DNA of 32,068 bases from Eubacterium sp. (GTDB lineage: Bacteria > Bacillota > Clostridia > Oscillospirales > Acutalibacteraceae), in contig JALEZT010000015.1 of assembly GCA_022772725.1 (NCBI GenBank), positions 1-32,068 on the forward strand. The letters run 5' to 3'. The first letter of the stretch is position 1, and the number at the start of each line of letters is the position of its first letter. Below are positions 14,519 to 31,532 of the stretch, piece by piece. Below the pieces are notes generated by a model that was given only the letters and a program-made list of their open reading frames with translations, did not search any database and was not told where the DNA came from. Made by a program: the position numbers and the translations under genes.

Positions 14519-16234
14519 ATGGTTACACTTAAAATTAACGGTATTCCCGTTCAGGCGGAAGAAGGCACAACTATTATTGAAGCGGCAAGGCTTGCCGGAA
14601 TAGACATTCCCTCTCTCTGCTATCTTAAAGATATAAACTGCATCGGCGCGTGCCGAGTTTGCGTTGTTGAGGTTAAGGGCGCAAGAAGCCTTGTTGCCTC
14701 CTGCGTTCACCCCGTTGAAGAGGGACTTGAAGTTTGGACAAACACACCGAAGGTTCGCCAGTCAAGGCAAACAACTCTTGAGCTTTTGCTTTCGGAGCAC
14801 CACAAAAAATGCCTTTCCTGCGTTCGTTCAAGCAGATGCGAGCTTCAAAAGCTTTGCAAGGACTACGGTGTTGACGAGGACCGCTTCCCCGACACAGATA
14901 CTCTTCAAGAGGTTGACCTTTCCTCCTCTTATCTTGTTAGAGACAACAATAAATGTATTCACTGTATGCGTTGCACGGCGGCGTGCAAAAATCAAACAAT
15001 AGGCGTTATCGGCCCAAGAAGAAGAGGCCACAACAAAACCATCGGCTGTGCATTTGATATGCCGCTTCAGGAAACAGCGTGTGTTGGCTGCGGTCAGTGC
15101 GTTGTTGCCTGCCCCGTTGGTGCGCTTTATGAAAAGAGCGCAATACCTGCCGTTTGGGAGGCAATTGCAGACCCAAGCAAACAGGTTGTTTTCTTTACCG
15201 CGCCTGCAATTCGCGCAACGCTCGGCGAGGAATTTGACCTGCCGATAGGAACAAATGTTGAAAAGAAGCTTCCTGCGGCAATAAGAAGGCTTGGCGCAGA
15301 CGCCGCATTTGATATGGATGTTACCGCCGATTTAACTATTCTTGAAGAAGCAAACGAGCTTGTTAACAGAATTAAATATCACAAGCCGCTTCCTATGTTT
15401 ACCTCCTGCTGTCCCGGCTGGGTTAAGTTTGCAGAGCACAATTTCCCGAATATGCTTGCTCATCTTTCAACCTGCAAATCTCCTCAGCAGATGTTCGGTG
15501 CGCTTCTTAAAACATACTACTGCGAGAAAAACAATATTAATCCCGAGGATTTATTTGTTGTTTCCGTTATTCCCTGCACGGCAAAGAAATTTGAGCACAC
15601 GCGCGAGGAAATGGCAGGAGATGTTGATGTTGCATTAACAACCCGTGAGCTTGCGCAGATGATAAGCGGTGCGGCAATCAACTTTAATATGCTTCCCGAC
15701 GAGGAATTTGATTCTCCGTTTGATGTTGCTTCGGGCGCAGGCGTTATCTTCGGCGCAACGGGCGGTGTTATGGAGGCCGCATTAAGAACTGCGGCTAATA
15801 TTCTTGACGGCGAATTTTCACTTGTTGATTTCGGCGAGGTTAGAGGAATTAACGGTGTTAGAGAAGCAACATATAATGTTGCCGGAATGGAAATCAAGGT
15901 TGCCGCCGCAAGCGGACTTGCAGACGCAAGAAAGCTTTGCGAGCAGGTTGAAAACGGCACCTCGCCATATCACTTTATCGAGATTATGGCTTGCCCCGGC
16001 GGTTGCATTAACGGCGGCGGACAGCCCATTCAAAAAGACGCAACGCGCAATTCCGTTCCTATCAGAGAGCTTCGCGCAAAGGCACTTTATGATGAGGACG
16101 CTTCACTTGATTTAAGACGCTCACACGATTCGCCCGTTATAAAAACGCTTTATGACGAGTTCTTCGGCAGTCCTAACAGTGAAAAGGCACATCATATTTT
16201 GCATACAAAATACACACCGAGAAAATTATATTAA
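14519..16234 (+). CDS. hydA: [FeFe]-hydrogenase catalytic subunit (HydA/HndD type)
   Basis: 571 aa; N-terminal 2Fe-2S and 4Fe-4S clusters, H-cluster motifs TSCCPGW, IPCTAKKFE, MACPGGCINGGGQP; RBS AAGGAGGGAAG. Confidence 0.96.
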   Translation: MVTLKINGIPVQAEEGTTIIEAARLAGIDIPSLCYLKDINCIGACRVCVVEVKGARSLVASCVHPVEEGLEVWTNTPKVRQSRQTTLELLLSEHHKKCLSCVRSSRCELQKLCKDYGVDEDRFPDTDTLQEVDLSSSYLVRDNNKCIHCMRCTAACKNQTIGVIGPRRRGHNKTIGCAFDMPLQETACVGCGQCVVACPVGALYEKSAIPAVWEAIADPSKQVVFFTAPAIRATLGEEFDLPIGTNVEKKLPAAIRRLGADAAFDMDVTADLTILEEANELVNRIKYHKPLPMFTSCCPGWVKFAEHNFPNMLAHLSTCKSPQQMFGALLKTYYCEKNNINPEDLFVVSVIPCTAKKFEHTREEMAGDVDVALTTRELAQMISGAAINFNMLPDEEFDSPFDVASGAGVIFGATGGVMEAALRTAANILDGEFSLVDFGEVRGINGVREATYNVAGMEIKVAAASGLADARKLCEQVENGTSPYHFIEIMACPGGCINGGGQPIQKDATRNSVPIRELRAKALYDEDASLDLRRSHDSPVIKTLYDEFFGSPNSEKAHHILHTKYTPRKLY

Positions 16235-16253
16235 TACATTTATACTACGGCTT

Positions 16254-16284
16254 ATCCCCGTGCATTTTGCACGGGGATTTTTTA
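16254..16284 (+). terminator. Rho-independent terminator of hydrogenase operon
   Basis: ATCCCCGTGCA-TTT-TGCACGGGGAT followed by TTTTTT. Confidence 0.85.
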
Positions 16285-16435: not shown

Positions 16436-16768
16436 TTGGGAAGAAAAAAGAAAACGGCAAAGGACGAGGTGCGCGAAGGCTTAAAGCGCCTTGCTTTCGG
16501 AGAAATACAGGACGCGGTGCTTCTTCTTTTTGCCGACGAAGAGGAAATCGAAAAAAGACTGCCTGAGCTTAATCTTTACAACATAAGCGAAATCAAGAGA
16601 CCCAAGGGCGGAGGAATGGAGATTAAGTTTTTTGACAGGATAAAGGCACTTGAAAAGCTGAGCGCGCTTGACTCGGAGCAAACGGCAGAGCCTCTTAATT
16701 TTTACAGGGCGTTAGAGGAAAGCGCAAAAAGCGTTAAATCTGTTTTTGAAGAGGATTTGAATGAATAG
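16436..16768 (+). CDS. phage terminase small subunit-like protein (short form)
   Basis: 110 aa, TTG start after CGGAGGAAC; FDRIKALEKLSAL segment resembles the C-terminal part of PBSX-type TerS; immediately upstream of and overlapping TerL. Confidence 0.6.
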   Translation: MGRKKKTAKDEVREGLKRLAFGEIQDAVLLLFADEEEIEKRLPELNLYNISEIKRPKGGGMEIKFFDRIKALEKLSALDSEQTAEPLNFYRALEESAKSVKSVFEEDLNE

Positions 16769-18017
16769 CTTTGTTCCCTTTTCAAAAAAACAGCTCGCGG
16801 CTTTAACCTGGTGGTGTCCGCAAAGCCCTGCGCACAATAAAAACGGCATTATCTGCGACGGAGCGGTTCGTTCGGGCAAAACGCTTTGTATGAGCATTTC
16901 CTTTATCAGCTGGGCGTTTTACTGTTTCAGCGATACCTCCTTTGCCGTTTGCGGAAAAACCATCGCTTCACTGAGGCGAAACGTTATAACGCCGCTGATA
17001 CCGCAGCTGACTTCCCTTGGCTTCAAATGCGATTACAAAATAAGCCGGAATTATTTAGAGATTGAAAAGGGAGGATGCACAAACCGCTTTTACCTTTTCG
17101 GCGGAAGAGATGAATCCTCCGCATCTCTGATTCAGGGTATGACCCTGGGAGGAGTGCTTCTTGACGAGGTTGCGCTTATGCCCCGCTCCTTCGTTGAGCA
17201 GGCACTTGCAAGGTGTTCTCTTGAAAATTCAAAATTCTGGTTTAACTGCAACCCCGAGCATCCTTTTCATTGGTTTTACAGAGAATGGATACTTAAAAAA
17301 GAGCAGAAAAATATGCTTTATCTTCATTTTACAATGGACGATAATCCATCTCTTTCCGAGCAGGTGAAAAGCAGATACAGGCAGCTTTATTCGGGAGCAT
17401 TTTACGAACGCTTCATAGATGGGCGATGGGTTGCGGCAGACGGGCTTGTTTACCCGATGTTTAACGGGGAACGGCACATTAAAAAGAGCAACGGCGCATT
17501 TTCCTTATACTATTTATCCTGCGATTACGGAACCGTTAATCCCTTTTCGCTGGGACTGTGGGGAAAGGCGGAGGACGGCTGGTATCGAATTGACGAATAC
17601 TACCATTCAAGCAGAGACACGGGAGTTCAGCTTACCGACGAGGAATATTACGAGGAGCTTTGCAGGCTTGCGGGAAATCGCAAAATTGAAGCACTTGTTA
17701 TTGACCCCTCTGCCGCAAGCTTTATCGAAACTGTTAAGCGCAAGGGAAAATACAGGGTTATAAAGGCAGACAATGATGTTTTAAAGGGCATAAACCTTGT
17801 TTGCTCCGCGCTTAAAAACGAGGAGATATTCTTTTATCCCTGCTGCACCGATATTATCCGTGAATTTTCCGTTTACCGCTGGGATAACGGTATAAAAAAG
17901 GATGCGCCGCGCAAAGAAAACGATCACGCAATGGATGACCTGCGATATTTTACGGCAACCGTTTTATATGCCGAGGAGAGCGGCGCAGGCTACACCTTTG
18001 CAGTGGAAAGGAAGTGA
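16761..18017 (+). CDS. phage terminase large subunit (PBSX/Terminase_3 type)
   Basis: 418 aa; Walker A GAVRSGKT, Walker B VLLDEV, nuclease-like acidic residues in SCDYG, VIDPSAA and HAMDDLRY. Confidence 0.93.
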   Translation: MNSFVPFSKKQLAALTWWCPQSPAHNKNGIICDGAVRSGKTLCMSISFISWAFYCFSDTSFAVCGKTIASLRRNVITPLIPQLTSLGFKCDYKISRNYLEIEKGGCTNRFYLFGGRDESSASLIQGMTLGGVLLDEVALMPRSFVEQALARCSLENSKFWFNCNPEHPFHWFYREWILKKEQKNMLYLHFTMDDNPSLSEQVKSRYRQLYSGAFYERFIDGRWVAADGLVYPMFNGERHIKKSNGAFSLYYLSCDYGTVNPFSLGLWGKAEDGWYRIDEYYHSSRDTGVQLTDEEYYEELCRLAGNRKIEALVIDPSAASFIETVKRKGKYRVIKADNDVLKGINLVCSALKNEEIFFYPCCTDIIREFSVYRWDNGIKKDAPRKENDHAMDDLRYFTATVLYAEESGAGYTFAVERK

Positions 18018-18021
18018 AAAC

Positions 18022-19152
18022 TTGGGCTTATTCAGCAACAAAAAGGCAAAAAAGGAGGAGGCAGGCGTTGCCGCCGTTCAAACAAGTGCACAAAGCCGCC
18101 ACCCTTACAGCCTTTTAAGCTCTTACGCACCGCTCGGTATGAACGGCAGAATATACGCCTCCCTGCGAGAAAGCGTTCCCATTATTGATTCCGCCGTTTT
18201 AAAGATTATCAGGCTTGTTAACGATTTCAGGTTTGAAACGGGAAACGAGAAAACAGACGGGCAAATAAACGCTTTTTTTGATGAAATAAACGTTGGCGGA
18301 AACCAAACGGGCATAAGCGCATTTGTTTCCTGCTATCTATCACAGCTTTTAACCTACGGAAGCGCCGTTGGCGAAATGATTGCAGACGACAGAGGGCTTT
18401 ATGCGCTTTATAACGGCGAGCTTGAAGCTCTTGAAGTTAAAAGAGCACCCAACGGGCTTGGAATTGAATTTTACAATTCGGGAACTAAAATTGAAAATCA
18501 AGAGCTTATTCTTTTTTCCGCGCTTAATCCAAAAGCGGGAGAAATACTCGGAACGAGCCTGCTCAGCGGCTTGCCGTTTATTTCCGACATTTTGCTGACT
18601 GTTTACAACACAATCGGCGAAAACTGGAAGCACGCGGGCAATCTGCGATATGCCGTTACATATAAGCCTAACGGCGATATGAGCGACGCACGCCTTGCAA
18701 AAGAAAGGGCGCAGGAGATAGGCAGGGCTTGGCAGGAAGCGATGAGCTGCACCGACGCGGTTAAGGATTTTGTTGCCGTGGGCGATGTCAGCGTTAAGGT
18801 TATCGGGGCAGACAACAATGTTTTATCAAGCGAAATACCCGTTCGCCAGCTTCTTGAACAAATCGTTGCAAAAACGGGAATACCGCCCTATATGCTCGGC
18901 TTATCTTGGAGCACAACGGAGCGAATGAGCGTTCAGCAGGCTGATATGTTCACAACAGAGCTGAGGGCATACAGAAAGATATTAACGCCCGTTCTTTTAA
19001 AAATTGCAAACAAATACGCACAGATAAACGGCATTTACACACCGATAAAGGTTTCCTGGAACGAAATTCTGCTTCAAGATGAAACGGAGCACGCAAGAGC
19101 GCGTCTTTATAACGCTCAGGCAGACAGTATTTTAAAGGAGGTTTCCGATTGA
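18022..19152 (+). CDS. phage portal protein
   Basis: Likely TTG start at 18022 (LGLFSNKKAKKEE...). GMNGRIYASLRESVPIIDSAVLKIIRLVNDF..., C-terminal GIPPYMLGLSWSTTERMSVQQADMFTTELRAYRKILTPVLLKIANK; gene order after TerL. Confidence 0.85.
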   Translation: MGLFSNKKAKKEEAGVAAVQTSAQSRHPYSLLSSYAPLGMNGRIYASLRESVPIIDSAVLKIIRLVNDFRFETGNEKTDGQINAFFDEINVGGNQTGISAFVSCYLSQLLTYGSAVGEMIADDRGLYALYNGELEALEVKRAPNGLGIEFYNSGTKIENQELILFSALNPKAGEILGTSLLSGLPFISDILLTVYNTIGENWKHAGNLRYAVTYKPNGDMSDARLAKERAQEIGRAWQEAMSCTDAVKDFVAVGDVSVKVIGADNNVLSSEIPVRQLLEQIVAKTGIPPYMLGLSWSTTERMSVQQADMFTTELRAYRKILTPVLLKIANKYAQINGIYTPIKVSWNEILLQDETEHARARLYNAQADSILKEVSD

Positions 19153-20111
19153 CAGACGGATTTATCAGCAAGGGCTACTCCCCTACCGATTCTGATTATG
19201 AAAAAATCAGACAGTTTACCCGAAAGGAATTTGCAAAGGATGAGCTTTATGTTTTTGAAGCGGTTCTTTGCAGTAACGACATAGACAGAGATTATGAAAA
19301 ATTCTCCGTCAGCGCTCTTAACGAGCTTGCAAGGCTTTTTAACGGCAAAACGGGTATTCGCGACCATTCAATGAAATCCACCGACCAGGCGGCAAGAATT
19401 TTTGAAACAAGAGTTGAAAAAGAGGACGGCAGAAAAACGGCTGACGGAGAGGATTACTATGTGCTCAAAGCAAAGGCATATATGGTCAGAACAGACGAAA
19501 ATCAATCGCTTATCAAGGAGATTGACGCAGGAATTAAAAAAGAGGTTTCCGTTTCCTGCCGAGTTAACGAGCGCATTTGCTCTGTTTGCGGTGCAGACAA
19601 GGCAAAGGAATACTGCAACCACATTGCAGGAAGAAAATATGACGAAAAAATGTGCTTTATAACCTTAAACAATGCTACCGACGCTTATGAATTTTCGTTT
19701 GTTGCGGTTCCGGCACAGCGCGACGCAGGCGTTGAAAAAGCATTCGGCAACACGCACCGCACCGACGCTGAGAGCATTGAAAAGCAGCTTAAAGAGGGCG
19801 AAACGCTTCTTTCCGCACAGGAGGCGCAGACGCTTTTTGACTATATCGGCAGTCTTAAAGAGAACGCAAGGCTTGGAGAGGATTACAAAAAATCTCTTGA
19901 AAAGGAAATTTTATCGCTTTGCAGAAAGGCATTGCCCGAAATGGATATTGAAATTTTTTCGGGTGTTACTGCCGTTATGACCGCAAAGGAGCTTCTTGCC
20001 TTTAAAGCGGCCTTTGAAAAGAAAACAGCATCTCAAAGCATACCTGCTCCGCAGCTTGCAAAGGCACCGAGCACAAAACACAAGGCTGATTTCAGCCAAT
20101 TCAGAATTTAA
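19149..20111 (+). CDS. phage capsid maturation protease, probably fused to scaffold
   Basis: 320 aa; VLCSNDIDRDYEKFSVSALNELARLFNGKTGIRDHS...IDAGIKKEVSVSCRVNERICSVCGADKAKEYCNH...YEFSFVAVPAQRDAGV with His and Ser in expected places; charged helical C-terminal half. Confidence 0.8.
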   Translation: MTDGFISKGYSPTDSDYEKIRQFTRKEFAKDELYVFEAVLCSNDIDRDYEKFSVSALNELARLFNGKTGIRDHSMKSTDQAARIFETRVEKEDGRKTADGEDYYVLKAKAYMVRTDENQSLIKEIDAGIKKEVSVSCRVNERICSVCGADKAKEYCNHIAGRKYDEKMCFITLNNATDAYEFSFVAVPAQRDAGVEKAFGNTHRTDAESIEKQLKEGETLLSAQEAQTLFDYIGSLKENARLGEDYKKSLEKEILSLCRKALPEMDIEIFSGVTAVMTAKELLAFKAAFEKKTASQSIPAPQLAKAPSTKHKADFSQFRI

Positions 20112-20123
20112 GGAGGACAAACA

Positions 20124-20465
20124 ATGTCATTAAGTTACAAGGGCTTTAACGAGCAAATTCTTACATTCAAAGCATTTCAGGCAAGCAAGGGCTATCCCGT
20201 TACCATCAACACACAGGGAGAGGTTACAAACTGTAATTCAGGCAGTGAATTCGCAGGAATTTGCACCTCACTCAGAAACGACCTTGCAACAGTTCAGGTA
20301 AGCGGCTACGCAGAGCTTCCGTGCTCAGACGCAAGCCCAAGCTACGGCATCTCTTATCTTGTTGCCGACGGCTCCGGCGGAGTTAAAGCCGCCGCAAGCG
20401 GAAAGAAAGCCTGCCTGATTGTTTCAATCGACAAGGTTAACAAAAAAATCGGCTTTATTATGTAA
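20124..20465 (+). CDS. small capsid decoration-like / DUF2190-like protein
   Basis: 113 aa; beta-rich, Gly/Ser-rich; position between protease and MCP; RBS AAGGAGG. Confidence 0.55.
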   Translation: MSLSYKGFNEQILTFKAFQASKGYPVTINTQGEVTNCNSGSEFAGICTSLRNDLATVQVSGYAELPCSDASPSYGISYLVADGSGGVKAAASGKKACLIVSIDKVNKKIGFIM

Positions 20466-20483
20466 AAGGAGGAATTATTCACT

Positions 20484-21473
20484 ATGGCATTTGACAACAT
20501 TAAACTTGAAAAAGGACTTTATGCAACATCAAAGGGCTTTACGGCTTCTCTTGAAGAGCTTGACCCCTCCGAAAACTATATAGGAACGGAGCTTGAAGGG
20601 CTTGACGCCTATCAGCGACAGTTAAAGCGCTTCGGAATTAAGGTTTCGGGAGAAAATTCAGACAGCGTTATGAAATTCTTTAACACTACCGATTCAGCCG
20701 CGCTTTTCCCCGAATATGTTTCAAGAGCAGTTAAGCAGGGTATTGAGGAATCCGATGTTCTTTCAAGCATTGTTGCAACAACAACCGTTATTGATTCGCT
20801 TGATTACAGGTCTGTTGAAAGCATTCCGGGCAATGACGAAAAAGAGCTGAGCCAGGTTGCAGAGGGTGCATTCATTCCGCAGACAACCGTTAAAACAAAG
20901 GAAAGACTTACAAAGCTTCAAAAGAGAGGCAGAATGCTTGTTGCCTCCTATGAAGCAATTAAATTCCAAAAGCTCGACTTATTCACCGTTATGCTCAAAC
21001 AGATCGGCGCATACATTGCCAAGAGCCAGCTCGACGACGCAGTTATTTCGCTTATTGAAAGCGAAGACGATTTCAGAGCAACAAGCGAAACGGCTTTAAC
21101 ATATAATCATTTCATTGAGCTTTGGAACAGCCTTCAACCGTATGAACTTTCAACTATTATTGCTCCGTCTGCTTACATAATGCAGATGATGAATATGAGC
21201 GAATTTAAGGATTCAAACGCAGGCCAAACCTTCCACGGCACAGGCAAAATGATTACCCCGCTCGGAGCCCAAATCGTTAGAAGCGAGGTTCTTCCCGATT
21301 TTGTTGTTGGGCTTGACAAACGCTTTGCGCTTGAAAAAATTCAGGCAGGCGATGTTGTTACGGAATATGACAAGCTTATTGACCGTCAGCTTGAAAGAGC
21401 AACGATAACCTCAATTGCAGGCTTTTCAAGAATAACAAACGGCGCCGTTAAGGGAATTCATTTTGAAGCGTAA
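20484..21473 (+). CDS. phage major capsid protein (HK97-fold)
   Basis: 329 aa; RGRMLVASYEAIKFQKLDLFTVMLKQIGAYIAKSQLDDAVISLIE and C-terminal LDKRFALEKIQAGDVVTEYDKLIDRQLERATITSIAGFSRI; position after protease. Confidence 0.85.
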   Translation: MAFDNIKLEKGLYATSKGFTASLEELDPSENYIGTELEGLDAYQRQLKRFGIKVSGENSDSVMKFFNTTDSAALFPEYVSRAVKQGIEESDVLSSIVATTTVIDSLDYRSVESIPGNDEKELSQVAEGAFIPQTTVKTKERLTKLQKRGRMLVASYEAIKFQKLDLFTVMLKQIGAYIAKSQLDDAVISLIESEDDFRATSETALTYNHFIELWNSLQPYELSTIIAPSAYIMQMMNMSEFKDSNAGQTFHGTGKMITPLGAQIVRSEVLPDFVVGLDKRFALEKIQAGDVVTEYDKLIDRQLERATITSIAGFSRITNGAVKGIHFEA

Positions 21474-21497
21474 TAATTCCCGAGAGGAGGTATCGGC

Positions 21498-21851
21498 TTG
21501 ACCGACAAAAGCAAGGTTTCTGAATATCTTATTCAGATTTCAAAAAAGAGCGAGGAGGAGCTTGAAGCCTTTTCGGGCATTATTGATTTCGGCATAAAAA
21601 CCGTTTTTGAAATGCTCAAAAGCAGTGAATACGAAAATGATGAGCGCATTTTATTTTTTACTGCGGCTTTTATAAACACCTTTATTTCCGAATGCTCCGA
21701 CGGCTCTGCGCAGATAACCTCTTTCAGCGCAGGAGATGTTTCGATAACACAGAGTGCCGCAAGCTCATCGGCTGATGAAATATACAAAAAAGCATACGAA
21801 GCGGCTTCGGGCTTAATAAATGACGGCGCATTCGCATTTATGGGAATTTAA
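21498..21851 (+). CDS. head-tail connector-like protein (gp6/YqbG position)
   Basis: 117 aa; helical protein directly after MCP; TTG start with GAGAGGAGG RBS. Confidence 0.5.
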   Translation: MTDKSKVSEYLIQISKKSEEELEAFSGIIDFGIKTVFEMLKSSEYENDERILFFTAAFINTFISECSDGSAQITSFSAGDVSITQSAASSSADEIYKKAYEAASGLINDGAFAFMGI

Positions 21852-21866
21852 CCTACGCAAAAGCAT

Positions 21867-21894
21867 CGCCCGTGCAGAAAAATCTGCACGGGCG
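21867..21894. repeat. 12-bp perfect inverted repeat (stem-loop) inside the phage operon
   Basis: CGCCCGTGCAGA-AAAA-TCTGCACGGGCG; no T tract follows. Confidence 0.9.
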
Positions 21895-21932
21895 AGCAAT
21901 AACAACTAAGCGAAAGGAGCGGTTTTACGGAC

Positions 21933-22295
21933 ATTGTTATTAATAAAAGAAACGAGATAAAAGGCATTTTAAAGGCTTGCGGAAACACCGTTTATCTTGC
22001 AGACGGAGAATGGCGCTCAACGCCGTTTTTTGCCGTTATTGAGCAGAGATGGAAGAGAAACAAATCAAACTTTGAGGAAACTCAAACCGAAATCGGCTCC
22101 GTGAGTGCCGATTATTTCACATATATAGGCCCGTTTGACAGAGATATTGATGCGCTTTCCGAAAAGGGATATGTTATCTGCGACGGCAGAGAATACACAT
22201 TCAAAAAGAAGCAAAAGGTTTCGATAGGCGACAAGGTGCAGTTTTACTGGGCAGTATTAAGGCAGAAAACAGAGGGCGGCTATGATAATATTTAA
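21933..22295 (+). CDS. head-closure/head-tail adaptor-like protein with apparent non-canonical start
   Basis: Frame is open from stop TAA at 21900 through 22295: IVINKRNEIKGILKACGNTVYLADGEWRSTPFFAVIEQRWKRNKSNFEETQTEIGSVSADYFTYIGPFDRDIDALSEKGYVICDGREYTFKKKQKVSIGDKVQFYWAVLRQKTEGGYDNI. No ATG/GTG/TTG in frame before GTG 22101; ATT at 21933 or ACG at 21927 follow AGGAG. Track reports only 22101..22295. Confidence 0.6.
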   Translation: MVINKRNEIKGILKACGNTVYLADGEWRSTPFFAVIEQRWKRNKSNFEETQTEIGSVSADYFTYIGPFDRDIDALSEKGYVICDGREYTFKKKQKVSIGDKVQFYWAVLRQKTEGGYDNI

Positions 22296-22680
22296 AAATC
22301 TTATTGAAGAAACGGTTGAAGCAATTAAGGCAAATCCGTTTTTTGCAGATAAAAAAATAACGGTTTCATATCCTTATGTAAAAAAGCCGACCTTTCTTGA
22401 AAATCCCGTTATTGCCGTTGGGCTTTTCGATATGAATTTATATGCAGAGCATCTTGGAGAGGACGCTCCGGCAGGAACGGTTAAGGTTTTTTGCGATTGC
22501 TTTTTTCCTTATGAGTTCAACGCTTCGAGCAGACAGGAGGTTTTATCCGAGGTTTGCAAAAGTGTTATTCAGGCAGGCGCGCTTGCAGTTTATGCAGACG
22601 AGCCTGCTTCAAGCAAAGCAACCGCCTGCATTATCAGACGGCTTATTTTTACCTTTAAGGATGAAACCGATTTTAATTAG
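22282..22680 (+). CDS. phage neck / tail-terminator-like protein
   Basis: 132 aa; position after the adaptor, before the baseplate genes; ATG overlaps end of preceding frame. Confidence 0.45.
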   Translation: MIIFKNLIEETVEAIKANPFFADKKITVSYPYVKKPTFLENPVIAVGLFDMNLYAEHLGEDAPAGTVKVFCDCFFPYEFNASSRQEVLSEVCKSVIQAGALAVYADEPASSKATACIIRRLIFTFKDETDFN

Positions 22681-22691
22681 CGGAGGTCAGT

Positions 22692-22781
22692 ATGGAAAAC
22701 TATGAAGAAATAAGGGAGCTTTCCGAATATCTTATGCTTGATTCAAAGCGGTACGACTCCTCACAGCAGGAGGAGGAATAA
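22692..22781 (+). CDS. 29-aa acidic ORF at head/baseplate junction
   Basis: MENYEEIRELSEYLMLDSKRYDSSQQEEE*; CGGAGG RBS, stop overlaps next start (TAATG). Below ORF-track cutoff. Confidence 0.6.
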   Translation: MENYEEIRELSEYLMLDSKRYDSSQQEEE

Positions 22782-23296
22782 TGCAGCTTATAAAAATGAG
22801 ATATAAGGATTTTGAATTTGAAAAAAATCCTTATTCCGTTGAAATATCAAAATCAAAGAAAATAAGCAAGCGAACTGTTTTCGGCAAGGGCGAAAGCGTT
22901 TGCGAAACGGCACAAAACGCAGAAATCATTACCGTTAAGGGCAGGCTTTACGGAGAAGATGCAAACGAAAGAGCGCAATCGCTCAAACGGCTCCAAAGGC
23001 AATCGGGCTCAGGAATGCTGCTTTTGCCCGACGGCGACTGCATTTGCGCCTTTTTATGCTCGCTTCAACTGAAAAGCGAAGCAAGGGAGGGCTATATTGA
23101 ATACTCAATCGAGTTCACGGAGGACGCCTCAAAGCGAGGAACGCCGGAAATAAACTACGGCTTTACCTATGCGCTTGACGGCGAAAACGCCTTTGATATT
23201 GCAAAAAGGTGCAACACAACCGTTGAAAGCATTATGAAAAACAATGAAATTAAAACGCCGTTTGACATTAAAGCAGGCGAAAGGCTGGTGATTTGA
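22781..23296 (+). CDS. XkdP-like LysM-containing baseplate hub protein
   Basis: 171 aa; C-terminal LysM-like ALDGENAFDIAKRCNTTVESIMKNNEIKTPFDIKAGERLVI. Confidence 0.75.
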   Translation: MQLIKMRYKDFEFEKNPYSVEISKSKKISKRTVFGKGESVCETAQNAEIITVKGRLYGEDANERAQSLKRLQRQSGSGMLLLPDGDCICAFLCSLQLKSEAREGYIEYSIEFTEDASKRGTPEINYGFTYALDGENAFDIAKRCNTTVESIMKNNEIKTPFDIKAGERLVI

Positions 23297-24243
23297 TGAA
23301 ATTTCTATTCAAATGCCTTTCGGGGAAGGAATTTTCTCCCGAGCAAATAACATCATTTGAGCTTTCGGGCGAAACCTCTGCGGCGTGCTGGGGACTGCGA
23401 ATTAATTTTATTTGCGAGAAGGCACCCGAGGAAATCGTTGAGGTTAAAGCCTTTGCAGATGATAAAATGATTTTCAGCGGCTACTGCGATATGCAAAGAG
23501 CCACCTGCAATTCAAACGGCATTTCCGTTTTTGTTTATGCGCGAAGCTCCGCCTGCCTGCTTGTTGACAACGAAGCACTCCCCTGCGAATACTATATGCC
23601 AACCTCGCGCCAGCTTTGGATACAAAACGGCAGAGAATTCGGCTTTGAATACGGACTGCCGAATCTTACAGGCGAGGGCACATACAGAGTTTTAAAGGGA
23701 ACAAGCCGCTTCGGTGCGATAAATGATTTTGTTTGTGAAATCCACGGCAGAGGAATTTATGTTTCGCCCGACGGAATTATTAAGGCCTACGAAATGAGCA
23801 GAGATTTAAAATCGCTTCCCGAAAACGATATTATCAGCGCCTCGTTCACTTACAAAAGAAGCAGTGTTTTAAGCGCAATTGACTATAAAATTGATTCGGG
23901 CGAGAAATACAAATATCATCTTGAAAGCGTGATTGCGAAAGAAAACAATATAACGCGCAAAAAGCTGATTAATCTTTCCTCTCTTCCCTCTTGGCAGAGA
24001 AAGGCGCGCGCAAAGCGGCAGATACAAACCTCTTTGAAAAGCTACACGGCGGTTGAAATTTCACTTTCAGGTATTCACGCCTATTCGCTTTACGACAGAG
24101 TGTTTGCCGATTTGCCTTTGCTTGATGCCTGCGGAGAATATTTTGTTGATGAAATTGTTTACCGCGCAGGCGCAAACGGATTTTCAACCTCGCTTATTTT
24201 AAGGCAGGAGGCAAAGGAGGAATTTAACAATTATGTGGCTTAG
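23293..24243 (+). CDS. XkdQ / late control D-like baseplate hub protein
   Basis: 316 aa; SACLLVDNEALPCEYYMPTSRQLWIQNGREFGFEYG..., and hub-like position between LysM protein and spike. Confidence 0.75.
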   Translation: MMKFLFKCLSGKEFSPEQITSFELSGETSAACWGLRINFICEKAPEEIVEVKAFADDKMIFSGYCDMQRATCNSNGISVFVYARSSACLLVDNEALPCEYYMPTSRQLWIQNGREFGFEYGLPNLTGEGTYRVLKGTSRFGAINDFVCEIHGRGIYVSPDGIIKAYEMSRDLKSLPENDIISASFTYKRSSVLSAIDYKIDSGEKYKYHLESVIAKENNITRKKLINLSSLPSWQRKARAKRQIQTSLKSYTAVEISLSGIHAYSLYDRVFADLPLLDACGEYFVDEIVYRAGANGFSTSLILRQEAKEEFNNYVA

Positions 24244-24712
24244 CAAAAAGGGTGCTTCAAGAGAAATCTCTGCGGCAGAGGAGGGCACGCTGACAGTCAG
24301 CTCGCAGGGGTGCACAGAGGCAACGGGAACGCTTCAATCAAGAAGCGCAAAAGCATATTCTCCGTTTGGATATTCCTACTGCGCTCCTGCCGGAGAACGG
24401 GTTTTGATTATCAACGGCTCCTCGGGAGCGGCTTACGCGGGAGTTGAAATGGAAGACAATTCACTTTCCCCCGGAGAAATAAAAATATCCTCGCCGACAG
24501 GCTCGCAGATTTTTCTTAACGGAAACGGAGATATAAAAATGCTTTCTTCCTGCGGCTCCGATATTCAGCTTAACGGCAACGGCGAGATAAATATGTCCTC
24601 GCCGACGGGAGCATATATTAATATTAACGGCGACGGGGATATCATTATGAACGGCGTTACTATAATGCAAAACGGAGTTATTCTTAATGCAGACGGAGAT
24701 GTTATTTTTTAG
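24233..24712 (+). CDS. Mu gp45-like baseplate spike protein with repetitive C-terminus
   Basis: 159 aa; AYSPFGYSYCAPAGERVLIINGSSGAAYAGVEMEDNSLSPGEIKI resembles Mu gp45 family; followed by about 18-residue N-G-(N/D)-G-(D/E)-I repeats. Confidence 0.7.
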   Translation: MWLSKKGASREISAAEEGTLTVSSQGCTEATGTLQSRSAKAYSPFGYSYCAPAGERVLIINGSSGAAYAGVEMEDNSLSPGEIKISSPTGSQIFLNGNGDIKMLSSCGSDIQLNGNGEINMSSPTGAYININGDGDIIMNGVTIMQNGVILNADGDVIF

Positions 24713-24746
24713 TTTCAAAAAATAATTTACCGAAGGATTTGAAAAA

Positions 24747-25079
24747 ATGAATGAAATAATTAAAAACGGAGATTATGCTTTGGAAAACGGAGCCGTTCTT
24801 CAAGGCGAATACAGTGAAGCGGTGCTTCAAGACATAGCAAGGGCAATTAAAACACGGCTCGGCGAGTTTTATCCCGATAAGAATTACGGCTCGCGGCTTG
24901 ATGAAATCAACAGCGAGCCTGCGCTTCTTTATGCGCTTTGCTTTGCACGGTGCGCCGTTTACTGTATGGACGGAGTTTACATAACGAAGGTTGATGCCGT
25001 TCAGGGCGGCTTTAATTTTTCCGTTTCAATAAACAACGAGGAAAAGGAGGTGTTTGTTGAATTTGAGCATAACCTATAA
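24747..25079 (+). CDS. baseplate wedge protein (gp25 / Mu gp46 / DUF2634-like)
   Basis: 110 aa; VLQDIARAIKTRLGEFYPDKNYGSRLDEINSEP typical of the gp25-like family. Confidence 0.8.
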   Translation: MNEIIKNGDYALENGAVLQGEYSEAVLQDIARAIKTRLGEFYPDKNYGSRLDEINSEPALLYALCFARCAVYCMDGVYITKVDAVQGGFNFSVSINNEEKEVFVEFEHNL

Positions 25080-26130
25080 TGAAATTCTTGAAAAAATGAA
25101 GCTTGCCTTCTTTAACGAAAGTGGGCAAAGCATAAAAAATATGTCTGACCTTGAACTGCGGTTTAAAGCGGCGGCAACGGAAATATATTCTGCCTATGCA
25201 AACGCGGATTTTGTTTTAAGGCAGGCATTTGCGCAAACGGCAACGGGCGAATATCTTGATATGCACGCGCAGTTAAGAGGCATTGAAAGAAAGAAGAGCG
25301 CAAGGGCGCACGGCGCGTTAACCTTTTTCGTTTCCGAGCCTCTTGAAGAGCAGATAATTATTCCTGCGGGAACAATCTGCTCCAACGAAGGCAATCCGCA
25401 GATACAGTTTGAAACAGACGCACAGGCAACCCTGCCGGCAGGCGAATTATCCTGCACGGTTGCGGCAACGGCGGTTACACACGGAAGAGAATTTAATCTT
25501 TCGCAGGGCGAGGTTACGGTTATGGTTAATCCGCCCGAATACATTGAGGGCGTTATAAACGATACGGCATTTACGGGCGGCTGTGATGACGAGAGCGACT
25601 CCTCACTGCGCGAGCGCATTATATCGTCTTACAGTGTTACTTCAAACGCCGTAAACAAGAAATCAGCCGAGGAGCTTGTTATGACGCTTGACGAGGTTAG
25701 GGACTGCAACATTTCACTTGATGAAAGCTCAGCTCTTACCGTTTGCGTTAAAACGGCTGACGATAATGTTTCGCAGGAGCTTTGCGACGAAATAACAAAC
25801 CTTTTGGGCTTTGCGGCATTATGCGGAGTTGAGATAAACTCCGTGCCTGCTTCAAAGGTTGATTTTTCGATACGCGCGGCAGTTAAAATCAAACGCGGCT
25901 ACAACAGAGAAGCACTTGAAGCAGAGCTTCTTGAAAAAATCAGGGAGGCTTGCTCGCAGGAAAAAATCGGCAAAAGCATTAAAGCCTCCGAAATCACTCC
26001 TGCACTTTACGGCACGCAGGGAGCAGAGCTTATTGAGCTTGCTCTTTCGCCGGGCGCAGAGGGAGTTGCCGCCTGCGGCGCAAGGGAATATCTTGTTTTA
26101 ACAGACGCAAGGGTGGATTTTTATGAATAA
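25054..26130 (+). CDS. baseplate J protein (gpJ / Mu gp47 / XkdT-like)
   Basis: 358 aa; ATGEYLDMHAQLRGIERKKSARAHGALTFFVSEPLEEQIIIPAGTICSN, FTGGCDDESDSSLRERIISSY. Confidence 0.93.
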   Translation: MLNLSITYNEILEKMKLAFFNESGQSIKNMSDLELRFKAAATEIYSAYANADFVLRQAFAQTATGEYLDMHAQLRGIERKKSARAHGALTFFVSEPLEEQIIIPAGTICSNEGNPQIQFETDAQATLPAGELSCTVAATAVTHGREFNLSQGEVTVMVNPPEYIEGVINDTAFTGGCDDESDSSLRERIISSYSVTSNAVNKKSAEELVMTLDEVRDCNISLDESSALTVCVKTADDNVSQELCDEITNLLGFAALCGVEINSVPASKVDFSIRAAVKIKRGYNREALEAELLEKIREACSQEKIGKSIKASEITPALYGTQGAELIELALSPGAEGVAACGAREYLVLTDARVDFYE

Positions 26131-26677
26131 CAAAATCTTTTCAAGGCTTTGTGCGCTTATGGAAAAACTTGGCTTTTCCGCCGAGGACAAAGGAATAACG
26201 CGCGGAGAAATAGCAGGCTATGCCGAGGGAATTTCCTTTGCGGATGAAATGCTTTCTCAAACGCTGAATGAAATTTTTATTTCAACTATGAGCGGCTTCG
26301 GAATTGAACGCCTTTGCGATTTGCTTAACATTGAAAGAAAAGATGCAGACGAGGAAACAAGGCAGGCAATTCTAAAAAAAGCGGCTCAGGGCAGTCATCA
26401 AATTTCCGTTAGAGAATACAACGAAGCAATGGCGCAAATGGATTTTTACAGCGAAACGCAAACAGACGACGGAATAGCATATAAAATCTCGCCCGTTACA
26501 AAGGAAAACCTTGCGGCGCTCGGCGAATTTATTGAAAACTATTTCCCCGTTTACAGAAAAGCGGTTTATGACGGAAACGGTGCAGACTGGGATTTCTTGG
26601 AGTCGCTTAATTTTTACTGGTATGAAATTGATGCGTCGGGCTTTTCGTTTGATATATTTGAATCCATTGAGGCTTAA
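26123..26677 (+). CDS. YmfQ/XkdU-like baseplate protein (DUF2313, Mu gp48-like)
   Basis: 184 aa following gpJ; GFGIERLCDLLNIERKDADEETRQAILKKAAQ. Confidence 0.75.
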   Translation: MNNKIFSRLCALMEKLGFSAEDKGITRGEIAGYAEGISFADEMLSQTLNEIFISTMSGFGIERLCDLLNIERKDADEETRQAILKKAAQGSHQISVREYNEAMAQMDFYSETQTDDGIAYKISPVTKENLAALGEFIENYFPVYRKAVYDGNGADWDFLESLNFYWYEIDASGFSFDIFESIEA

Positions 26678-26745
26678 TGCTTTTCATTGGATAAAGCCGG
26701 CAGTCCGCTCCGGCTGAAACGGCGGACGGAAAGGTTAAGATTTTT

Positions 26746-27222
26746 ATGAGTTCAACAAACAAAACAACTTATTTGGGCTTGAACAGCTGGCTTGGCACCG
26801 ACAAGCCGCAGAGAGCCGATTTTAACACAGACAACGAGCTTATTGACACGGCTATCGGCGAGCATTTTGAAGATGAAACGCGCCATATTACAGGCGAGGA
26901 AAGAGACACCTGGAACTCTCCCTATTTTATCGGAACTTATTTCGGAAACGGAGAAACACCGCGCACAATAACAACAAAATGCCCGTTTGAGCCGTCAATT
27001 GTTATTGTTTTTGCAAACAGCTTTACGCCGACCGTTACGAGCTTTTCCGCTTCAACGGTTAGGCATTATTTCGGCTTTGCAACAAAAAGAGGCTCAACCA
27101 TGGATTTTTCCTTTGACAAGAAAAATCTTATTATCAAGAGCACAACAGACGGAACAAACGGAAACGAATATGTTATGCTCAATCAAATCGGAAAAACTTA
27201 TATTTACATTATGATAAGATAA
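26746..27222 (+). CDS. short tail-fibre-like protein
   Basis: 158 aa; N-terminal NKTTYLGLNSWLGTDKPQRADFNTDNELID attachment motif, HITGEERDTWN, C-terminal GTYFGNGETPRTITTKCPFEPSIVIVF. Confidence 0.75.
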   Translation: MSSTNKTTYLGLNSWLGTDKPQRADFNTDNELIDTAIGEHFEDETRHITGEERDTWNSPYFIGTYFGNGETPRTITTKCPFEPSIVIVFANSFTPTVTSFSASTVRHYFGFATKRGSTMDFSFDKKNLIIKSTTDGTNGNEYVMLNQIGKTYIYIMIR

Positions 27223-27288: not shown

Positions 27289-28599
27289 TTATTCGCAAAC
27301 GCCCTCACAGCCGTTTTTATCAAACATACAAAGGGCTTCAATCATAATGTTTATACCTGCTTCAATTGCATCCTCGCGAAGATTTTCGGGATTATCGAGG
27401 CGGGTGTGATAATATCTCGGCGGAGCCGGATCCATTGCGGCAAAGCCTGTTGCGGGGATACCTCTTTGAGTAAACGCCGCAGCGTCGCAGCCGCCGATAT
27501 AAATTGATTCGTATTTAACATCAAAGCCGCAGTTTGCGCAGGCGTCGTGCATAAGCTCCTTAACGCCCTTATGATGTTGAAGCGTGCCGGAGAGGTCTCT
27601 GTCGTAAACCGCCATTGTTTCAAGATCGCGGAAGGTATCCATGGCAACAACGATAGTTGGAGTTTTTTTCATTTCCTCCTCGTGAGCCTTTGCATAAGCC
27701 TTTGCGCCTCTTAAACCTGCTTCCTCAGAGCCCGAGCAAATCATAACAACCTCGGTGTTTTCAAAGCGAACCTTTGCCTCGTCAAGAGCCTTTATTGCCG
27801 CCATTCCAACATAACAGCCCGAAAGATTATCCGAAGCACCGGGAACTGATTTGGTCCAGCTTTGGAAGAAAAGGAATGCAAATTCAAACGGAATGAAAAC
27901 GCAGGAAACAACAAATAATGCTATAAAGAACCATCTTGCGCTTTCGATATTCACAGCGGCTGTGCCCTTGCCGACAATAATGCAAACAAGCGCAAAAACC
28001 GTTTGAACAACAAGGCCGACAACTGCGGGAATTTCAACAAAAAGCTTTGCCTGCAAGCCGCCGATTAAGTAATTAAGAGTCCATTCAAACTGCGAATCCG
28101 AATGGCCTATCATAATAAATCTTTTTTTGATTTCGCCTGTTGGCTTTCTTGAAGCAATCATATTGTGGGAGATTTGCTTTGGGAAAAGAAAATCATCAAA
28201 CTGCTTATACATAAGAAATTCAAAAACAAGCGGAACAAACGCCAAAACGCAAAGCACAAGCGCCGCAATGGGACTTGCAAACCAGTTTATGAAAACGCTT
28301 GCAATACCGCAGGCAACCGTGAACGGAATAAAGCCCATAAAGCCCTGACGGTGAATTTCAAATTCTTCAATATCAGTTTTTTCGCAATAGTTTTTCATAT
28401 CCTTTTGGAACCACTGCTGAGCGCGAAGCTCCTCGGGAGAGCCCGGCTTACGAGGGCCTATTCTTTTGCAAACCTTTGTTATGCCCTTCATTGCATATTC
28501 GGTTTGACGCTTAATGTCATAATCATTGCTGTATTCAAGTGCAACCTTCATATTCTTCGCCTTTCCGCACGCAAAAGCAATTGAGCCCTTGCCTGCCAT
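27289..28599 (-). CDS. M28 family zinc peptidase with internal TM segments
   Basis: 436 aa; FIMIGHSDSQFEW, GASDNLSGCYVGMAAIKAL, CSGSEEAGLRGAKAYAK, HTRLDNPENL; hydrophobic segments in the middle. Confidence 0.85.
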   Translation of the reverse strand: MAGKGSIAFACGKAKNMKVALEYSNDYDIKRQTEYAMKGITKVCKRIGPRKPGSPEELRAQQWFQKDMKNYCEKTDIEEFEIHRQGFMGFIPFTVACGIASVFINWFASPIAALVLCVLAFVPLVFEFLMYKQFDDFLFPKQISHNMIASRKPTGEIKKRFIMIGHSDSQFEWTLNYLIGGLQAKLFVEIPAVVGLVVQTVFALVCIIVGKGTAAVNIESARWFFIALFVVSCVFIPFEFAFLFFQSWTKSVPGASDNLSGCYVGMAAIKALDEAKVRFENTEVVMICSGSEEAGLRGAKAYAKAHEEEMKKTPTIVVAMDTFRDLETMAVYDRDLSGTLQHHKGVKELMHDACANCGFDVKYESIYIGGCDAAAFTQRGIPATGFAAMDPAPPRYYHTRLDNPENLREDAIEAGINIMIEALCMFDKNGCEGVCE

Positions 28600-28675
28600 A
28601 TATAATTATTATAATTTATTTTATCATAATATTACTGATTTTACAAGAATTGTATCTAAATTTTACAAAATGCAA

Positions 28676-29914
28676 TCAGTCTAAATGATGAATGAAAACG
28701 CCCGAAAGAAGCTTTGGCTCAAACCATGTTGATTTCGGTGGCATAATCAGCCCTGCATCTGCAATATCCATTAAATCCTTAACGGTTGTGGGGAACATTG
28801 AAAAAGCAAGCTTCATATCAGTTGCCGTGCGCCTTTCAAGCTCTTCAAGACCTCTTATTCCGCCGATAAAATCAATGCGCTCATCATTCTTTGGATTTTC
28901 AATTCCCAAAACGGGAGCAAGCAGATTATCCTGCAAAACGGAAACATCAAGCCTTTTAACCGGGTCGCCTTCATCAATAAATTCCTTTTTTGCTTCAAGG
29001 CGATACCACTGACTGCCGATAAGCATACCGAAGGTGTGCCTTTTATCCGGCTTAACCCTTTGAGCAGATTTTTCAACATTAAAGCATTTTGAAATTTCGC
29101 TGATAAATTCCTCTTCGCTTTTGCCGTTTAAATCCTTAACAACACGGTTATAATCCATAATTTCAAGGTCGCAATCGGGAAAAGCAACGGCAAGAAAGAA
29201 ATTGAATTCCTCGCTTCCGTTATAATTCGGATTTTGCTCACGCCTCATCTGACCTACTCTAACGGCGGATTCGCATCTGTGGTGCCCGTCTGCAATATAA
29301 AACGCGCCTGCTTCGGCAAAAAGCTCCGAAAGGCGGGAGATGATTTTTTCATCATCAACCACCCAAACAAGCTGCCTAACTCCGCCAGACACAAAATCAT
29401 AAACGCTTTCGCAATTCTTTGTATATTCCTCTGTTATTTTGCAGATTTCGTCATTTTTTCTGTAAGTTAAAAAGATGGGTCCCGTGTTTGCATTAGTTAT
29501 ATTAACATGATTAATACGGTCGCGTTCCTTCTTTTCAAGTGTTTTTTCGTGCTTTTTGATATTGCCGTTCATATAATCGTCTATTGAGGCACAGCCTGCA
29601 ATACCCGTTTGCGCTCTGCCGTTCATTATTTGGCGGTAAATATAAAAGCACGGCTTTGAATCCTGAACAAGTGCTCCGCTTTTTTCGAGTGCTTCAAGAT
29701 TTTCCTTTGCTTTTTGATAAATTTGCTCAGAGTACTGGTCTGTTCCGACGGGGAAATCAACCTCTGCCCTATCCGTGTGCATAAACGAAAGCGGCTTGCC
29801 CTTAACATATTCGCGAGCCTCCGCGCTGCTCATAACATCATACGGAAGCGCAGGTATATCCGCCTGATGCTCTTTACTTGGTCTGAATGCTTTAAATGCC
29901 CTGAAAACTGCCAT
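28676..29914 (-). CDS. DUF1015 family protein
   Basis: 412 aa; FRAFKAFRPSKEHQADIPALPYDVMSSAEAREY, IADGHHRCESA, VDDEKIISRLSELF characteristic of DUF1015. Confidence 0.92.
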   Translation of the reverse strand: MAVFRAFKAFRPSKEHQADIPALPYDVMSSAEAREYVKGKPLSFMHTDRAEVDFPVGTDQYSEQIYQKAKENLEALEKSGALVQDSKPCFYIYRQIMNGRAQTGIAGCASIDDYMNGNIKKHEKTLEKKERDRINHVNITNANTGPIFLTYRKNDEICKITEEYTKNCESVYDFVSGGVRQLVWVVDDEKIISRLSELFAEAGAFYIADGHHRCESAVRVGQMRREQNPNYNGSEEFNFFLAVAFPDCDLEIMDYNRVVKDLNGKSEEEFISEISKCFNVEKSAQRVKPDKRHTFGMLIGSQWYRLEAKKEFIDEGDPVKRLDVSVLQDNLLAPVLGIENPKNDERIDFIGGIRGLEELERRTATDMKLAFSMFPTTVKDLMDIADAGLIMPPKSTWFEPKLLSGVFIHHLD

Positions 29915-30684
29915 TACTTTTTCTGCTCCCTGTTTCTTTCATAAATTATACGCAAGCCGTCAAGCAAAAGATTTTCATCAACTATAACCTCTCGCCTAAC
30001 CGCCTTTGAGATTGCTTTTGAAAGGCCGCCCGTTAAAACTATTGTTGCCTTTTCGCCGAGCTCCTCCTCAAACCTTTCAGCCATACCCTCTATCATAGCC
30101 GCCGTGCCGATAACGGAGCCGCATTTCATTGCGTCTATCGTGTTTGCTCCGATAATTTTTGACGGTGCGGAAATATCAATATGGGGCAAAAGCGAGGTTG
30201 TGCTTGCAAGGGCATTGATAGCCGTTTTAACACCGCACATAATTGCTCCGCCGAGATGAGCACCCGTTTTATCCAAAACAGACGCCGTTGTTGCCGTTCC
30301 TATATCAAACAATATTGCGGGAAGCGGATATTTATTAATAACCGCAACATCGCCAACAACTATATCTGCACCCGTTTCTGCAGGGTTATCAAGCTTTATG
30401 TTAAGACCTGTTTTTATACCGGGGCCGACAACAAGCGAGTCCACGCCGCAAACGGTTTTTATGCTTTTTTTGAGTGTTCTTACGAGAGCGGGAACAACGC
30501 TTGAAATAATTGCGCCCTCAACAGAGGCTACACCGTATATTTCAAGGAAGGTTTTAAGCTTCATTGAATATTCAATTTCCGTTTCATGAGTGTTTGTTGC
30601 AAGCCTTCCCGAGCAGACAAGCCTTTCGCCGTCAAGCACGCCGAGAACAATATTTGTGTTGCCCACATCAACTGCAAGTATCAT
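29914..30684 (-). CDS. coaX: type III pantothenate kinase
   Basis: 256 aa; MILAVDVGNTNIVLGV, ISSVVPALVRTL, DIGTATTASVLDKTGAHLGGAIMCG. Confidence 0.97.
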   Translation of the reverse strand: MILAVDVGNTNIVLGVLDGERLVCSGRLATNTHETEIEYSMKLKTFLEIYGVASVEGAIISSVVPALVRTLKKSIKTVCGVDSLVVGPGIKTGLNIKLDNPAETGADIVVGDVAVINKYPLPAILFDIGTATTASVLDKTGAHLGGAIMCGVKTAINALASTTSLLPHIDISAPSKIIGANTIDAMKCGSVIGTAAMIEGMAERFEEELGEKATIVLTGGLSKAISKAVRREVIVDENLLLDGLRIIYERNREQKK

Positions 30685-31114: not shown

Positions 31115-31198
31115 GGAGTGTCGAGGGTGCGGGTGTCCGGTGGACACCTCTGCGTCAGCAGAAGCACCGACCGAATCGACAGGTGAGACCGCCACTCC
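31115..31198. repeat. 84-bp nested-palindrome repeat, copy 1
   Basis: GGAGTGTCGAGGGTGCGGGTGTCCGGTGGACACCTCTGCGTCAGCAGAAGCACCGACCGAATCGACAGGTGAGACCGCCACTCC; 83/84 identical by eye to copy 2. Confidence 0.95.
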
Positions 31199-31448: not shown

Positions 31449-31532
31449 GGAGTGTCGAGGGTGCGGGTGTCCGGTGGACACCTCTGCGTCAGCAGAAGCA
31501 CCGACCGAAACGACAGGTGAGACCGCCACTCC
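31449..31532. repeat. 84-bp nested-palindrome repeat, copy 2
   Basis: Same sequence as copy 1 except GAAACG for GAATCG. Confidence 0.95.

Follow-up and report, generated by a model that had tools for sequence, protein, structure and literature searches.

How can a phage-type head be joined to a contractile-type baseplate when no recognizable tail gene lies between the two? The question is raised by a 32,068-nucleotide stretch of DNA (here called the window) from Eubacterium sp. (Bacillota; Clostridia; Oscillospirales; Acutalibacteraceae; GenBank assembly GCA_022772725.1, contig JALEZT010000015.1, positions 1 to 32,068), which makes up contig C194 in an assembly of 1.62 Mb that is 89.8% complete. 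Between positions 16436 and 27222, the list of open reading frames (ORFs) and profile searches place 17 tightly packed ORFs on one strand in a 10.8-kb cluster; an earlier sequence-only reading had the order and the packing right and put the number of genes at about 15. The ORFs run from small and large terminase (TerS and TerL) through portal, protease, decoration protein, and major capsid protein (MCP) to three neck genes, a 29-amino-acid (29-aa) ORF, and then a LysM protein, hub, spike, gp25, gpJ, YmfQ, and fibre (Table 1). We suggest that this is probably a phage-derived locus, domesticated and vertically inherited, that builds a gene transfer agent (GTA)-like particle. With somewhat less assurance, we also favor the view that it represents a new and ancient GTA-like family in Oscillospirales, separate from the Faecalibacterium agent FpGTA, in which a contractile tail has been dismantled stepwise; in the window's genus, the neck would sit tubeless on a contractile-type baseplate, held by a vestigial tape-measure peptide, a body plan that has not been described before.

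The gap between neck and baseplate is genuine. The sequence-only reading had reported neither sheath, tube, chaperone, nor tape measure, and in profile searches no ORF of the cluster matched any of them; only the 29-aa ORF lies between neck 3 and the LysM gene. The sole ORF that could be a tube, neck 3 (22282-22680), was folded with AlphaFold2 (AF2) together with 30 relatives. Its product is a single domain of 132 aa, and the model (predicted local distance difference test [pLDDT] score of 86) found its best solved matches in lambda gpU, T5 p142, and the pyocin R2 collar, all of them phage tail terminators; on this predicted fold, the possibility that it is a hidden tube was dismissed. The full cluster, gap included, is present in 44 loci of the window lineage. 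The span from MCP to LysM measures 1158 to 1288 bp in those loci (1308 bp in the window) and holds no ORF longer than 172 aa.

The genes on either side of the gap are maintained. In close pairs, dN/dS is 0.03 to 0.44 for all 17 genes, including the 29-aa ORF, and all 17 are under purifying selection; a value of 0.68 for neck 3 (con3) in one pair was discarded because the fibre had been mispaired as con3. The Walker A/B motifs and nuclease Asp/His residues of TerL are invariant across about 93 loci, and H73 and S134 of the protease are invariant in more than 90. Together with the open frames, these results uphold the earlier impressions that the catalytic residues of both proteins are kept and that the head genes are not decayed.

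The cluster is vertically inherited with the chromosome. A TerL orthologue at 72 to 81% identity is present in 33 of 36 genomes of the genus, and CoaX, DUF1015, and M28 peptidase genes come after the cluster in most genus loci having enough flank. In ten loci, the head-gene tree holds 7 of the 7 internal splits of the tree built from these three neighbors, compared with at most 5 shared splits (nearly always 0 to 2) for 2000 random trees, and head and flank distances are correlated (r = 0.92). Across the order, the capsid gene was found in 69 of 394 sampled genomes, in single copy in 68 of the 69; in the window's family, it was present in 34 of 43. An intact head and terminase set that lacks integration, excision, and phage replication genes (profile searches placed none among the 17 ORFs, all of which are structural or packaging genes), combined with vertical inheritance and purifying selection, is the pattern by which GTAs are recognized.

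More distant relatives suggest how the gap arose. In one set of loci (L126-L128; L134-L136 and L142, from two other families; and the faecal-sample contig L120), the gap position holds a sheath gene (PF04984, PF17482; phrog_279, 6e-28), a tube-like protein gene, a chaperone-like ORF, and, at the tape-measure position, an ORF of only about 130 to 195 aa. The model of the relatives' tube-like protein (pLDDT, 84) matches the contractile tubes of phage 812, PVC, and AFP as well as the RcGTA tube. A second, sheath-less set retains the tube (L115, L116, L121, and L122), which in several members (L138, L140, L141, L143, and L144) forms a single chain with the terminator. The window's genus has neither sheath nor tube at the gap, and in a fourth set the cluster stops at the terminator, which is often fused to a fibre domain. 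In a single genome (L125), the terminator and an XkdP-type hub adaptor form one fusion protein, and only the hub comes after it. None of the 27 genomes of tail-less, terminator-ending forms contains baseplate J anywhere, so relocation of the baseplate to another site in these head-only relatives was rejected. Tail loss therefore appears, from these gene contents, to be graded, from sheath, tube, and a very short tape measure, through tube only and no tube, to no baseplate.

On a TerL-portal-capsid tree, the sheath forms are deepest and the window lineage forms one clade (support, 100). Architecture changes 10 times on this tree, compared with 44.5 times for shuffled labels; the root was set with siphophage TerL only, in a quick search, and the exact count of losses is uncertain. 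Because relatives with tail genes at the gap occur only in deeper lineages, the gap in the window is an old tail reduction fixed in the genus and not a recent deletion remnant. The sequence-only reading had held that relatives carrying tail genes at this point would mark a simple deletion remnant; such relatives do exist, yet the reduction that they reveal is old.

Judged by its sequence, the 29-aa ORF is no filler but a conserved gene. A profile of 38 distinct peptides from the genus (..ISEYLRLDSKRYD..) was used to search 15,858 ORFs of loci outside the genus. Ranks 1 to 5 (E values of 3e-4 to 2e-3) fell to small ORFs that occupy this junction in L141, L118, L144, L121, and L140, with L118 and L144 representing the same organism. 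Ranks 6 to 9, individually insignificant, fell to ORFs in the tape-measure position (L142, L135, and L120) and to the junction ORF of L116, and the matches lie at the C-termini of those ORFs. We read the peptide as a likely remnant of the hub-proximal C-terminus of the tape-measure-position protein; the sequence-only reading had missed this link, as it had the probable GTA-like nature of the element. A tape measure spans about 1.5 angstrom per residue; by our own estimate, 29 residues would then correspond to one tube ring at most and 130 to 195 residues to a handful. From loci with a contractile tail down to those that end at the neck, the tape measure becomes shorter as the tail does; such a graded series offers a test of the rule that tail length is set by the tape measure, and of how little is required for a capsid to dock on a baseplate.

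We hypothesize that TerL would fill the capsid with DNA and that a terminator hexamer would cap the neck and, without a tube, seat on the hub either directly or via the LysM protein. The 29-aa peptide would retain the part of the former tape measure that binds the hub and would help hub docking, the baseplate and fibre would bind a related cell, and DNA would exit through a stub instead of a contracting tail; lysis and release would require genes outside the cluster. The main argument for direct docking comes from relatives in which a single chain combines the terminator with a tube, a fibre, or a hub adaptor, since such fusions imply a fixed one-to-one stoichiometry and proximity. Along with the conserved gap and selection, the fusions lend indirect support to the earlier suggestion of a capsid seated almost directly on a baseplate. 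GTA-like function, that is, packaging and transfer, is predicted by analogy with GTAs.

Several points weigh against this interpretation. The particle, its packaged DNA, and its transfer are here predicted from genes, and the direct-docking geometry is drawn from gene content and fusions. Profile searches found no lysis gene among the 17 ORFs of the cluster, to which the search for such genes was confined. The cluster is missing from 3 of the 36 genus genomes, two of which are 97% complete, and the tail genes are fast evolving, with a mean identity of 37% versus 65% for the head. Further, TerL of one close relative (L039, 10001-11251) carries two in-frame stops, at Gln and Trp positions; the gene is a pseudogene, or else the metagenome-assembled genome was misassembled at this place.

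Among the alternatives, the one that survives best, although we consider it unlikely, is a domesticated particle with another job, which packages DNA or assembles but kills or signals in the manner of PBSX, with no gene transfer. The baseplate set of PBSX (XkdP-XkdU) is of a matching kind, and conservation, selection, and synteny would suit any useful particle. Moreover, the host DNA that PBSX packages is not injected (PMC12946183). However, tail-less relatives keep the packaging head and drop the baseplate, and the head therefore seems to be what selection keeps; the contractile tail by which PBSX kills has, in the window, lost its sheath and tube. We give still less weight to the possibility that a tube-like ring remains, with the terminator or an unrecognized host protein acting as a one-ring tube. 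Terminators and tubes have related folds, and the terminator-tube fusions of relatives would give exactly one ring, but the window terminator is one short domain and the span offers no other ORF.

A split system, in which another locus or a resident prophage supplies tube and sheath, had been the sequence-only reading's other explanation and is now very improbable. There is a precedent in FpGTA, which is spread over two operons 125 kb apart in Faecalibacterium (Borodovich et al. 2026; PMC12946183), and in G010, a genome of the genus, sheath and XkdM tube genes occur at another site (C1, 11995-13229), apparently in a separate contractile prophage. Nevertheless, the window assembly contains no Phage_sheath_1, XkdM tube, second baseplate J, or family-specific tube, and among 41 genus genomes (27 of them at least 90% complete) Phage_sheath_1 was found in one, the XkdM tube in two, and the family-specific tube in none, which argues against the split. 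Least credible of all, and in our view refuted at the genus level, is a decaying, nonfunctional prophage minus its middle tail genes: the cluster does lack a sheath, a tube, a chaperone, and the bulk of the tape measure, and L039 has a broken TerL, but every window gene is open and constrained, the architecture is fixed across a divergent genus, and the catalytic residues are invariant.

Table 1. Genes of the head-baseplate cluster and their chromosomal neighbors, with positions in the window.
Feature	Position	Strand	Best matches and remarks
[FeFe]-hydrogenase subunit, upstream chromosomal neighbor	14519..16234	+	conserved in nearest relatives
TerS-like small terminase, TTG start	16436..16768	+	PF03592 8e-5; orthologues in genus
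TerL large terminase	16761..18017	+	PF03237 1e-13; phrog_2 1e-48
Portal protein	17902..19152	+	phrog_30703 8e-119
Head maturation protease/scaffold	19149..20111	+	phrog_16951 5e-93; conserved H73, S134
Decoration-like head protein	20124..20465	+	phrog_4588 1e-25
Major capsid protein (MCP)	20484..21473	+	phrog_3922 8e-78; PF25209 2e-14
Neck 1, head-tail adaptor-like	21498..21851	+	phrog_541 0.03; synteny; conserved in the order
Neck 2, stopper-like, ATT start	21936..22295	+	position; conserved in the order
Neck 3 (con3), tail terminator	22282..22680	+	AF2 fold, PDB matches
29-aa peptide, ISEYLxLDSKRYD-type motif	22693..22782	+	homologues at same junction; dN/dS 0.03-0.35
LysM baseplate protein, XkdP-like	22781..23296	+	PF01476 4e-7
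Baseplate hub, gpD/XkdQ-like	23293..24243	+	phrog_177 5e-5
Spike/gp45-like protein	24233..24712	+	phrog_25991 1e-10
gp25-like wedge subunit (weak)	24747..25079	+	PF10934 0.013; phrog_120 6e-6
Baseplate J/gp6-like wedge (gpJ)	25054..26130	+	PF04865 2.5e-33; genome's only copy
YmfQ/gpI-like baseplate protein	26123..26677	+	phrog_521 0.016 (weak); synteny
Short fibre	26746..27222	+	phrog_33092 8e-7; domain fused to terminator in tail-less relatives
M28 peptidase, DUF1015, CoaX, downstream chromosomal neighbors	27289..30684	-	same three after cluster in relatives, other orientation

The chromosomal borders of the cluster are a [FeFe]-hydrogenase operon upstream and the M28 peptidase gene downstream; the M28-DUF1015-CoaX block (27289-30684) is inverted in the window relative to the other genus genomes. 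A promoter scan returned only terminator-like hairpins, located on both sides of the operon. A hairpin directly before the operon (16254-16278) has a core, CCCGTGCA/TGCACGGG, identical to that of a hairpin between neck 1 and neck 2 (21866-21895), where a perfect 13-bp inverted repeat encloses a 4-base loop. Neck 2 itself likely starts without ATG, GTG, or TTG, its frame opening at an ATT near 21936, and the true start of the portal gene probably lies inside the overlap with TerL. In the protease (19149-20111), a Cys/His knuckle (C137, C144, C147, C156, and H158) is conserved in 96 loci and is perhaps a metal site. At the right end of the window, a direct repeat of about 60 bases occurs at 31115-31175 and 31449-31509, at a spacing of 334 bases.

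The family is widespread. A scan of GTDB genomes returned at least 570 relatives (contigs of one order), many of them from ruminant and other animal guts, and the named carriers include Clostridium sporosphaeroides and Scatolibacter rhodanostii. Relatives also turn up in viral collections: at least 368 contigs listed as viral in IMG/VR hold a relative of the capsid gene, and the 80 that were fetched (L159-L238), mostly 4 to 17 kb, look like fragments of the chromosomal family and not like phage genomes. Four GenBank entries from faecal samples named "Bacteriophage sp." (L119-L122; MT835508, MT835769, MT835952, and MT836604) carry the head cluster, and L119, with Rnf and ribosomal-protein operons, is clearly chromosome, that is, host DNA deposited as phage. 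These four deposits offer at most an indirect hint of packaging. Among GenBank phages, a related portal was found only in faecal-sample contigs and in one distant Microcystis phage. Few GTAs are known outside Alphaproteobacteria, and a chromosomally inherited family of this extent is a plausible contributor to the packaging of host DNA by bacteria of the gut and rumen. If our interpretation is true, the bacteria of the window's lineage make a gene-carrying particle of their own, with its tail cut to a bare baseplate.

How does the cluster compare with known systems? Within the same genus, siphophage prophages (L029-L033) carry the nearest TerL outgroup (51 to 53% identical); they were considered as intact versions of the cluster and rejected, as those loci have no homologue of its other genes. 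The two of the five that were inspected (L030 and L031) are ordinary siphophage prophages, with unrelated portal and capsid, a tail tube, and a tape measure of 930 to 972 aa. FpGTA, the first GTA from gut Clostridia (January 2026), is described as podovirus-like, with capsids of about 40 nm, 8.4 to 8.9 kb of random host DNA, and no identifiable tail; GTA-like packaging was also seen in Ruminococcus callidus, CAG-115, and Onthomonas, and most taxa with such packaging have no gene cluster assigned to it (PMC12946183). It is conceivable that the window's family accounts for some of these. Our literature search found no other paper on such a system. As far as genes can tell, the window's element resembles FpGTA in belonging to the same bacterial order and in having a widespread head operon, a baseplate, and a fibre but no tail. 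In contrast, FpGTA has a holin and an endolysin in its second operon, whereas baseplate and fibre directly follow the head in the window cluster, with a single gpJ. The two families appear to be separate because the window family's TerL profile matched 0 of 9 genomes of the Faecalibacterium-type genus at E ≤ 1e-3, in a search without a positive control, with that genus provisionally identified by two 16S signatures (one V4) and FpGTA's own sequences not compared. By analogy, the element may work like FpGTA and yet apparently is not a member of its family.

The baseplate invites comparison with PBSX of Bacillus subtilis, which is likewise domesticated and has the order XkdP-XkdQ-spike-gp25-gpJ-YmfQ, corresponding to LysM-gpD-spike-gp25-gpJ-YmfQ here. 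PBSX keeps its sheath, tube, chaperone, and long tape measure, all of which the window cluster lacks. With RcGTA and other alphaproteobacterial GTAs, on the other hand, the cluster shares a conserved, vertically inherited structural operon without phage replication genes; those agents, which belong to another phylum, have a siphovirus-like tail with tube and tape measure and no contractile baseplate.

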